Positions 18,590-54,323 of a DNA stretch of 64,000 nt are shown here, piece after piece. Origin of the DNA: an uncultured Kangiellaceae bacterium (GTDB lineage Bacteria > Pseudomonadota > Gammaproteobacteria > Enterobacterales > Kangiellaceae); assembly GCA_905479925.1 (NCBI GenBank), contig CAJQOL010000007.1:1-64000 (forward strand), read 5' to 3'. Within the stretch, counting starts at the first letter, position 1. Every line of letters begins with the position of its first letter. The notes beneath the pieces were generated by a model. It ran no database searches. It was not told the DNA's origin and worked only from the letters and a program-made list of their open reading frames with translations. A program made the translations under genes and the position numbers.

Positions 18590-19563
18590 TCTTCAAACCA
18601 TTGGCGTTTAGAATTAAGTAAATCAGAAACCGCCATCGCTCGACTGCCGTCTGCCTGCAATTGGGTCAAGCGTATGCAGTTTGAGTCCCCACAGGCCACC
18701 AAAATTCCGTTCTTATCAAAACTAATCACCTGTCCTGGTTTCGCATTCGCTGATGCCGGTTTTTCATCGAGTTCTGCACCCCAAATCCTTAGCCGTTGAC
18801 CATTAACATGGGTAAAACTCACCGGCCAACTGTTATACGCGCGTATTTTTCTTTCAATTTGTTGAGCCGATAATCGCCAATCAACAACGGCCTCATCCTT
18901 GCTGAGCTTATGTGCATAAGTCGCCAGCTCGGCCGACTGTATTTCACCGGGAGCTAAGCTAGATGGATTTCCCTGCTGATAACTGTTTAAAAATTCAATA
19001 ATTGATTGGCTACCCAGTAGCATCAGTTTATCGTGCAACGTTGAACCGGTATCATTTGCCTCAATATTGCAACTAACCTTAGACAACATGTTGCCAGTGT
19101 CGAGCCCTTTATCCATCTGCATGATGGTAATACCGGTTTGTTGATCCCCAGCTTCAATTGCTCTTTGAATAGGAGCCGCACCTCGCCAACGAGGCAATAA
19201 CGAGGCATGGATATTGACACAACCAAAACGCGGTCGGTCCAAAACGGCTTGAGGCAGAATGAGTCCGTAAGCGACCACGATCATTAGGTCCGCTTGGTAG
19301 CGAGCTAACACCGCTAACGGAGTATCACCATCTTGATTAAGTGTTTGATCAAATTTTAGCGGCTGCTCAACGGGAATATCATGTTCCACAGCTAAACTTT
19401 TGACCGGTCCAAACGCTAGTTTTTTGCCGCGACCTACCCGACGATCCGGCTGACAATACACAGCCACAATATTGTGGCCGGCGTCAATCAATGCGTTAAG
19501 GATATTCGCCGAAAAGTCAGGCGTTCCGGCAAAGACGATTCTTAAGGGAGGATTAGAAGGCAT
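18571..19563 (-). CDS. fmt: Methionyl-tRNA formyltransferase
   Basis: RIVFAGTPDFSANIL; NIHASLLPRWRGAAPIQRAI; gene order with def and rsmB. Confidence 0.97.
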   Translation of the reverse strand: MPSNPPLRIVFAGTPDFSANILNALIDAGHNIVAVYCQPDRRVGRGKKLAFGPVKSLAVEHDIPVEQPLKFDQTLNQDGDTPLAVLARYQADLMIVVAYGLILPQAVLDRPRFGCVNIHASLLPRWRGAAPIQRAIEAGDQQTGITIMQMDKGLDTGNMLSKVSCNIEANDTGSTLHDKLMLLGSQSIIEFLNSYQQGNPSSLAPGEIQSAELATYAHKLSKDEAVVDWRLSAQQIERKIRAYNSWPVSFTHVNGQRLRIWGAELDEKPASANAKPGQVISFDKNGILVACGDSNCIRLTQLQADGSRAMAVSDLLNSKRQWFEDCPVLG

Positions 19564-51168: not shown

Positions 51169-52392
51169 TTATAATCGCCCAGAATTTATTAACCCATAGA
51201 ACAACCCTACAAATCCTCCACCGAGCCCAAAAAGAGTACCTAAAATTCGACAATAAAGCTGCACTAACTTCTTCCTCACTATCGTTCTATTTTTGAGGTC
51301 GCTATACAACTCTTGATCAATGATTCGCCAAGAACGAGTAATTAGGCTAAACAATACTAGAACAAATACCGAATAACTAAACACTGGCATTATCCAACCA
51401 CTAGTAAACTCGAAACTAACCGCTAACATCAGACCCGATACAGCTATCCATACCATGGTTTGGTTTCTATTTTTTATCATGAGCGCTTTTGCTTGCTGAT
51501 CGGTCATTTTTTTTATCGGTATGCTCGCTTGCCAATATGTCGCTAATAGTGCTGCCGCGACACCAACCATCACACCGCCGAGCATGGCAACAAGCTTGCC
51601 AGCTAAAGTCGTTTTACTGGATGCGCTAGAGCTCGCCAGTGCTGCTGCAGCCAATGGGCTACTTGCAGTTAAACCGCCTAAAATTAAGCTAGTAAAGCCA
51701 ATAGCAGGGGCCGTACTTAATATAAGTCGACCATATTTTTGTAGAATTTGATCTTTAAGAAGCGATCTTACCCGCGATAGCTTTTTTCGAACGTTAGATT
51801 CAGAAAGTTCAAGTAAGGCCGCTACTTGTTTGCTAGATTGCTCTTCCCGATAATAAAGTAATACCACTTCGCGACTTTCATCGGGTAACTCACTAATAAA
51901 ATCCTGCAGAATAAGTGACTGCTGATCACGCTCAAGCACTTCATCATTCGCTAAGTCTGGGTCACAAAAATCCGCTAGTAGTCGTTCTGCGTTTTCCCCA
52001 GTAATCTTACGGTCGACTTTGTTATCCCGCAGGAAATTGAAGGCCTGATAGCGCGTAGTTTGTCGTATCCAAGGTAAAAAACTCTCGTTGTTTTGCAGTG
52101 ATTTTAGGTTATTCCAAGTCGCAATAAAGACCTGTTGCGCTACCTCCTCACTATTGTCGATATCTTTTACAATGGCTAACGCTATACTGGTAACGGCATT
52201 TTTTGCAGTATTGATTAAACCGGCAAAAGCCTTTTGATCGCCAGCTTTGGCGGCTTCAACCAGTTCACCAATCGATTGGCCATTTTGTCTCACCAATAAA
52301 TCTGTCATTTTCTTGTTCCTACTCCAATGATTAACAGTTAAACAAGCGCTTATGAAGCGGCCAGGAATTGAACGACTTGTTGATTTAGCCAA
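51169..52392 (-). CDS. ECF-like sigma-70 factor fused to a C-terminal membrane domain (start probably 52308, MTDLLVRQ)
   Basis: AKNAVTSIALAIVKDIDNSEEVAQQVFIATWNNL; ELPDESREVVLLYYREEQSSKQVAALLELSESNVRKKLSRVR; several TM helices after it. Confidence 0.87.
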   Translation of the reverse strand: MAKSTSRSIPGRFISACLTVNHWSRNKKMTDLLVRQNGQSIGELVEAAKAGDQKAFAGLINTAKNAVTSIALAIVKDIDNSEEVAQQVFIATWNNLKSLQNNESFLPWIRQTTRYQAFNFLRDNKVDRKITGENAERLLADFCDPDLANDEVLERDQQSLILQDFISELPDESREVVLLYYREEQSSKQVAALLELSESNVRKKLSRVRSLLKDQILQKYGRLILSTAPAIGFTSLILGGLTASSPLAAAALASSSASSKTTLAGKLVAMLGGVMVGVAAALLATYWQASIPIKKMTDQQAKALMIKNRNQTMVWIAVSGLMLAVSFEFTSGWIMPVFSYSVFVLVLFSLITRSWRIIDQELYSDLKNRTIVRKKLVQLYCRILGTLFGLGGGFVGLFYGLINSGRL

Positions 52393-53252
52393 GAAGCGTC
52401 ATCGAACATAATAAAATGCCGCGAATCAGTATTCATCATTAATTTAGCATTTGATGCCCCTGACAATTGCTCATTGTACAATTTTCTAACCCGTAAATGA
52501 TCCTTCTGCTCAGTGAACGCCCCAGATGCACCTAATAGCAATATTGGACTTTTGATTTGACTCAATTGTGAACGCAAATCGTGGGTCATCAGGGTATAAA
52601 CGGCGTCACCAACAACAGCCGGAGATGACTTGCCTGCCATCTCAATAATCATATTCTTTGAGCTTTCCGATTTAGCTTGTCGATTAAGGCCAAAACGAGT
52701 TTGGGCAACTAGCTGTTGTTGAGTCATTGACCCATACATACCTTTCATTGTTTCCGCTTGCCCCTTAAGACTGTCAACCGTTGTGCTGTTAGTTTGGGTA
52801 AATAGCGGGCCAATAAACGGTAAACCATCCACAGAGACAATCGGTCCAACCATGTCAGGCTTTTCGGCAGCTAGCCAAAATGCCATAAAACCGCCCAAGC
52901 TATGGCCGATAATTGCTGGTTTATCGAGTTTATTGACCGCAATATAGGTCAAAAGCTGCTGCTTTACTGCACTAAGCGCCTGCTCTTTTACCGCCGGCGT
53001 TTCACCAAAACCCGCAATACTAATGCGATGAACACTGTTGGTTTTAGATAACTCCACCGCCAATGAATCCCAAACTCTTTGATCCGACATAAGGCCAGGA
53101 ATGAGTATCACGGGTTTACCGCTACCAACCACCTCACTAGTAAAATTGCTTGCTCCAGCGGAGTTAGTTAGAGTTATGATTAGCGCGATTAGTATAGCGA
53201 AAGGTATCGATATTTTTTGTTTACAGAATCTGTTTTTTAGTTTTTGTTTCAT
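52350..53252 (-). CDS. Secreted alpha/beta hydrolase
   Basis: Signal peptide; VILIPGLMSDQRVWDSL; IIGHSLGGFMAFWLA. Confidence 0.9.
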   Translation of the reverse strand: MKQKLKNRFCKQKISIPFAILIALIITLTNSAGASNFTSEVVGSGKPVILIPGLMSDQRVWDSLAVELSKTNSVHRISIAGFGETPAVKEQALSAVKQQLLTYIAVNKLDKPAIIGHSLGGFMAFWLAAEKPDMVGPIVSVDGLPFIGPLFTQTNSTTVDSLKGQAETMKGMYGSMTQQQLVAQTRFGLNRQAKSESSKNMIIEMAGKSSPAVVGDAVYTLMTHDLRSQLSQIKSPILLLGASGAFTEQKDHLRVRKLYNEQLSGASNAKLMMNTDSRHFIMFDDASWLNQQVVQFLAAS

Positions 53253-53368: not shown

Positions 53369-53634
53369 TATACCCATCCCACCTCAAGATGCATGCTTCA
53401 GAGCTTCACCAGAAAGCTTGAACGAGGCGCAGCTTGTAGGGAATGGCTAGCCCTTGGCAAAAACTGTAACGCTGTGCAAGTTTTCTGGTGAAACTCCCGT
53501 AGGGCGCGGCAATAAGCTATCACCTTCTTCGTTACTGCCACTTGAATTAGAGTGACTAATACGGCATTGCAGCGCCTTAAATATGACAGCTTATTGCCAC
53601 GCTGAAGTATGCATCTTGAGGTGGGATGGGTATA
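53369..53634. mobile_element. 266-bp MITE-like non-coding element with 33-bp terminal inverted repeats
   Basis: TATACCCATCCCACCTCAAGATGCATGCTTCAG (53369-53401) and its reverse complement with one mismatch (53602-53634); internal stem pairs 53405-53420/53477-53492 and 53508-53521/53585-53598. Confidence 0.75.
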
Positions 53635-53672: not shown

Positions 53673-54323
53673 ATGAAACTGACCTGGTATTTCGATTTTA
53701 TCTCACCCTTTGCTTATCTTCAGCATAGCCAGTTCAACCGATTACCTAATAATGTAGAGGTTGAATATAAACCCATTCTATTAGCTGGGTTACTTAACCA
53801 TTGGCAAAACGTCGGACCGGCAGAAATACCGCCAAAGCGGGTATTTACTTATCAACATTGTTATTGGCTGGCGAAAAAGAGCAACATTCCGATGACTATG
53901 CCACCGGCACATCCATTTAACCCGTTAATCGCTCTTCGAGCTGCGATTGCCACGGGGTCAACTAAAGAGAGCATACAAACGATATTCGAAGCCATATGGA
54001 AAGAAGGAGGAGATCTTAATCAGCCCGAAACGTTCAGCAAGCTAGAGCAAAAACTTGACCAATCCAATCTAGCTGATTTGGTTGGTGAAAGTTCCGTAAA
54101 GAATAAATTGAGAAGTAATACCGAGCAAGCGATTGAAAGCGGCGTATGGGGCGTTCCGACCTTTCATTTGGAAAATACAAGCCAATCAGGACCTCAAAAT
54201 TTTTGGGGATTAGACGCATTCGATATGTTGCTCGACTACCTAGAATCGCCGAACGATTTCTATGACAAAGAAATGTTAAGAATTGAGTCGCTGCCTTCGG
54301 CTATTCAGAGAAAAAAGGGCTGA
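53673..54323 (+). CDS. 2-hydroxychromene-2-carboxylate isomerase/DsbA-family protein
   Basis: WYFDFISPFAYLQHSQF; PPKRVFTYQHCYWLAKKSNIPMTMPPAHPFNPL; GVWGVPTFHL. Confidence 0.9.
   Translation: MKLTWYFDFISPFAYLQHSQFNRLPNNVEVEYKPILLAGLLNHWQNVGPAEIPPKRVFTYQHCYWLAKKSNIPMTMPPAHPFNPLIALRAAIATGSTKESIQTIFEAIWKEGGDLNQPETFSKLEQKLDQSNLADLVGESSVKNKLRSNTEQAIESGVWGVPTFHLENTSQSGPQNFWGLDAFDMLLDYLESPNDFYDKEMLRIESLPSAIQRKKG

Follow-up and report, generated by a model that had tools for sequence, protein, structure and literature searches.

The 266-bp element at 53369-53634 of the window, by which we mean the whole 64,000-nt stretch of Kangiellaceae DNA analysed, is a real MITE: it is short, has no transposase gene, carries long terminal inverted repeats (TIRs), is dispersed and lies at a presumed TA target. 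The best explanation, which we consider likely, is that it is a MITE of the IS630/Tc1-mariner type that is mobilised in trans and whose interior consists of two inverted hairpin modules acting as RNA. The left and right TIRs, both taken on the plus strand, occupy 53369-53401 and 53602-53634, are 33 nt long and are 97% complementary; the left repeat is of the TATACCC-N9-CAAGATGCA type, and the first TA of the left repeat (TA 53369-53370) and the last TA of the right one (TA 53633-53634) are the presumed target duplication. Inside them, inner stem 1 pairs 53401-53423 with 53474-53496 (87%), and inner stem 2 pairs 53504-53522 with 53584-53602 (89%). Folded as single-stranded DNA, the unit reached -72.3 kcal/mol versus -33.4 +/- 3.2 in 200 shuffles (z -12), none of which (0/200) folded as well. 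The element sits in a 420-bp intergenic gap between two divergent genes, one for an alpha/beta hydrolase (52350-53252, minus strand) and one for a DsbA-family protein (53673-54323, plus strand, Pfam PF01323), and the ORF of the latter starts 38 bp past the element end. No ORF of 60 aa or more is present within the element. The original prediction, which had described 33-bp terminal inverted repeats, two internal long-range stems, no convincing ORF and a position 38 bp before a DsbA-family gene, was correct on all of these points. A scan of the element for sigma-70-like promoters and terminators found none, and the terminal motif does not occur again in the 64-kb window.

The host assembly comprises 224 contigs and is 94.8% complete. 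It contains eight full copies with 96-98% identity, together with several shortened derivatives produced by deletion, the smallest of which is a 47-bp unit of two ends. Diverged relatives with 65-75% identity were present in three of the five other genomes of the genus, and an exact scan of named genomes with the terminal repeat gave matches in Kangiella sp. NORP56, the gammaproteobacterial MAG NORP108 and a Mariprofundaceae MAG. This last one, AMOR20_M1349, holds five TATACCC-type copies (L079, L083, L084, L090) and carries the label of a different class; the explanation is either horizontal transfer or contamination or misassignment of the bin. No close orthologue of the DsbA-family gene exists in the genus, and so the evidence for empty sites comes from homologous copies in other species, not from 53369-53634 itself. 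For four order-wide copies, the two flanks were joined and searched against 32 genomes; some species carry an insertion at these sites and others have them intact. In the cleanest pair, filled at L157 and empty at L184 (94% identity), the flanks join through one TA. At another site, filled in L164, 32 nt of the left end remain in genome G151 (L183), followed by a deletion to the flank via the 8-nt repeat TATATCAG, which is a decay footprint left by deletion through microhomology.

A transposase with the same terminal repeats was found in a relative. At locus L080, the repeat lies directly behind a gene for a 319-aa transposase of the IS630 family (DDE_3, 1.6e-36; IS630 equivalog NF033545, 241 bits), whose stop codon overlaps the repeat. 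The left end of the MITE and the right end of this IS are identical at 25 of 25 nt, and the left end of the IS falls outside the contig. Genome G001 has a related IS whose 356-aa transposase is intact. Order-wide, and including named Vibrio and Klebsiella plasmids, the left end of these IS is TATACCC-N9-GAAGATGCTTGATT and the right end TATACCC-N9-(C/G)AAGATGCAGG, and named IS630 elements with TATACCC-N9-GAAGATGC ends occur in Vibrio alginolyticus, V. campbellii, V. anguillarum and Klebsiella pneumoniae. With the IS630/Tc1-mariner group the element shares its ends, the TA duplication and the preference for CTAG seen in some members. PMC2170065 cites both the duplication and the preference, and TA/CTAG ends are typical of IS630 (PMC2170065 and its references). 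It differs in that the transposase gene is absent and the interior is unrelated to the IS; moreover, the left and right ends of the IS differ in N9, whereas the MITE is similar to the IS right end on both sides. No intact cognate IS630 transposase was found in the host assembly, and therefore any movement there must occur in trans or belong to the past. The element is probably moved by a borrowed enzyme of the IS630 family. The MITE of the original prediction was thus borne out by multiple copies, the TA target, the empty sites and an IS630 transposase with matching ends.

Arm 1 (53401-53496, sense plus), which is supported by covariation, by models R1 and R2 and by order- and class-wide matches, consists of a lower stem (53401-53423/53474-53496), an internal loop (GAGGC 53424-53428 / AACGC 53468-53472), an upper stem (53429-53435/53461-53467) and a conserved apical loop (53436-53460). 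The inter-arm linker (53497-53503) is part of the motif CCCGTAGGGC, which alignments A4 and A7 show to be strongly conserved. By profile comparison (arm 2 against inverted arm 1, score 32.0 versus 16.3 +/- 2.9) and by the matches of the arm-1 model R2 on the opposite strand in many relatives (E down to 7e-18), arm 2 (53504-53602) is an inverted copy of arm 1, and its sense strand is therefore minus.

The stems of these arms covary far above shuffled controls. In 27 full elements, 96.2% of pair cells were standard, 47 of 86 pairs had changed on both sides, and covariation was 0.390 versus 0.163 +/- 0.007 after shuffling and at most 0.09 when the pairing was slid. An order-wide alignment of 30 elements, most of 264-268 bp and with identity down to 51%, gave 0.451 versus 0.167, with 60 of the 86 pairs changed on both sides. 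For arm 1 class-wide, 98.2% of cells were paired, covariation reached 0.970 versus 0.243, and 26 of 29 pairs had changed on both sides; unpaired positions were more conserved than paired ones (1.42 versus 0.75 bits, p 3e-6). Length and spacing were nearly constant across the class. The proposal of selection on structure is strongly supported by this covariation in all three sets and by the excess of G-U over A-C described below, and a single-copy sequence without covariation, the outcome that would have spoken against the original prediction, is contradicted by the data.

In double-stranded DNA, a G-T on one strand is an A-C on the other, and therefore both selection on a cruciform and templated correction predict equal counts of the two. 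Counted as parsimony events in each arm's own sense strand, arm 1 showed 29 G-U to 2 A-C and arm 2 showed 43 to 12, in a model-fitted alignment that leans towards G-U; an alignment not fitted to the model gave 32 G-U to 2 A-C cells. The stem of the terminal repeats, used as a control, showed 17 G-U to 13 A-C. Given these unequal counts, the arms look selected as single strands, most simply as RNA. The pattern points to selection on folded RNA, not cruciform DNA, in the sense of each arm read inward from its own end, and strand-specific single-stranded DNA may also fit the G-U excess.

An unlikely alternative is that the element is an ordinary IS630 MITE whose hairpin symmetry arises only from templated arm-to-arm correction during replication, without selection on the fold. 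The nine-nucleotide spacers (N9) of the two ends do match within an element (0.88) and not between elements (0.54; alignment A4), and since they match in the MITE though those of the cognate IS do not, something homogenises the MITE ends, a pattern that correction between arms would produce. However, such correction is strand-symmetric, while in arm 1 G-U outnumbers A-C about 14:1, and it would account neither for unpaired loop motifs that are more conserved than the stems nor for the near-constant total length and spacing class-wide. We give a similarly low probability to the arms acting as DNA, by cruciform or hairpin extrusion that aids transposition or the binding of a host protein to double-stranded DNA. 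The very stable DNA fold would suit this idea, as would the lack of G-U bias (17:13) in the outer stem, a feature at the DNA level, but a cruciform uses both strands and should yield equal counts of G-T and A-C, and in IS630 elements the place of the arms is taken by the transposase gene. That the element serves the dsbA-like gene locally, as a cis-regulatory RNA or a leader, as its end 38 bp before the start codon might suggest, is very improbable, because many copies lie at unrelated loci and in both orientations; across 37 copies there was no preference for gene orientation or side, contrary to what a specific cis-regulatory role predicts. The REP-like identity that had also been suggested, a REP/BIME-type palindrome moved by a RAYT (IS200/IS605-like) transposase, can practically be dismissed: the element is palindromic, intergenic and multi-copy, but its long 33-bp TIRs share 25 identical nt with an IS630 end and its insertion is at TA, unlike short RAYT-linked palindromes.

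In the preferred explanation of a trans-mobilised MITE with RNA-forming arms, an IS630-family transposase would recognise the terminal repeats in trans, excise the unit and insert it at a TA. The interior is made up of two inverted copies of one hairpin module, not of a decayed transposase. Each module has an internal loop CAAGGC/AACGC and a conserved apical loop, and each arm points inward from the end next to it; MITEs with different IS630-like ends across Gammaproteobacteria have this core in common. Because G-U exceeds A-C in each sense strand, each arm is predicted to act as folded RNA once a transcript enters the element from that arm's side. Most likely, the hairpin would serve to mark or protect transcripts that read through from neighbouring genes, or be processed out of them, and insertions might thus be tolerable or useful, which would favour survival of the element.

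The core is widespread. The arm-1 covariance model found it order-wide in 99 of 395 genomes (30 of 114 genera), and a wider arm model found it class-wide in 89 of 369 genomes (73 of 272 genera), so that the two-hairpin core is present in roughly a quarter of the sampled Gammaproteobacteria. The elements found in this way usually measure 265-270 bp. Nearly all of the 35 class-wide loci inspected had near-perfect flanking inverted repeats, in sequence not used by the model, and they were mostly two-arm units of about 263-290 bp. Their end types, CTAGTACTCTTTCAAGG, TACTAAGACAAACGATAAC, TATTAACCCGGCAAC, CTAGTACATCAACCAC and CTAGTGTCC/CTAGTGTACTGC, are mutually unrelated, and at least five unrelated IS630-like end types are found on the same core. 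The host genome alone has three end types, with two copies bearing other ends at C9:28007 and C165:6960. For the non-TATACCC ends, the search gave only one clear IS630 match (L266) and one loose one (L264). An IS630 transposase fragment in genome G595 has the end CTAGTACATCGACCAGTTTATATTGACGG, which matches one of these types. Unexpectedly, the interior is better conserved than the ends, and the ends are exchangeable. As the same core carries several unrelated ends, we infer that it is older than, or independent of, any single end type. MITEs are usually viewed as IS ends that enclose decaying filler, whereas in this element it is the filler that is conserved and the ends that can be exchanged. 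In the plasmid collection, neither the window element nor two order-wide relatives nor one class-wide relative had a match, and the only match in element-based searches was obtained with a second class-wide relative. It is a partial match near 19292 of the Azotobacter chroococcum plasmid pAcX50f (L253), a two-arm member with CTAGGGTCTGTTGACGTTTTG ends in a named host. Plasmid searches with the TIRs alone of two other end types gave nothing useful.

Among known elements, ERIC (IRU, RU-1; MITEEc1 in ISfinder, MITEPlu5 in Photorhabdus) shares the TA insertion, the strong fold and the intergenic location. The ends of RU-1, TATACCC-N9-C(A/G)AG(N)TGCA, are of the same type as those of our element (PMC2759123), the ends of ERIC-like MITEs in Photorhabdus are reported to resemble the 'CCC-type' IS630 elements ISPlu3/8/19 (PMC6267812), and RU-1 has AAGGC...AACGC motifs placed comparably to our core. 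However, ERIC is 127 bp long with one arm, whereas the two-arm family is mostly 264-272 bp (266 bp in the window) with two inverted arms. Model R2 applied to an ERIC copy gave E = 0.035, and the profile score was 33.5 versus a null of 28.8 +/- 3.6; this resemblance is suggestive of common descent of the two cores, and because it reaches only E = 0.035 we have not filed the element as ERIC. RUP of Streptococcus pneumoniae is also small and proposed to be mobilised in trans at TA by an IS630 transposase, that of IS630-Spn1 (PMC2229807), but it is 107 bp long and described from one species, without the class-wide two-arm core. Correia/NEMIS elements are MITEs ending in TA whose transcript is structured and reportedly processed by RNase III (PMC10969869, PMC2229807); their ends, size and host group are different. 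The MITEPsy1/2 elements of Pseudomonas syringae were rejected as an identity because they differ in ends, size and target duplication. No Rfam family scored above the gathering score in the window or in 20 class-wide relatives; the sole match above threshold was the SRP RNA beside the element of L223. No description of the two-arm family appeared in the non-subscription literature searched, and the family may stand in ISfinder under a MITE name. The element is a known kind of MITE in an apparently undescribed two-arm form, with a structured core that is class-wide and outlives its ends.

More tentatively, the two-hairpin core could be a mobile RNA module, widespread in Gammaproteobacteria and uncatalogued, a passenger kept through selection on its RNA fold and loops that has switched between IS630-type end lineages, with ERIC as a one-armed relative. 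It would then probably be bound by a conserved host RNA-binding protein or ribonuclease via the CAAGGC/AACGC and apical loops, whichever way the adjacent gene is read. Since the loop motif is defined, a transposase family matches and natural variants are very numerous, the long-open questions of the role of ERIC-like elements and of why they retain their structure become directly testable.

Two further observations concern individual copies. In the arm loops of L057, L066 and L067 (copies of G001/G002), there are small nested insertions, each of two hairpins with a GGA loop (ACAGGACGT, ACATGGATGT and CACGGATG with AGGA/TGGAG). These resemble CsrA/RsmA-binding sites and are possibly a second tiny mobile element; such double hairpins are not enriched in the 64-kb window. 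The order-wide copies at L157, L158, L161 and L164 are inserted at a TA beside or within intrinsic-terminator-like hairpins of the adjacent genes.
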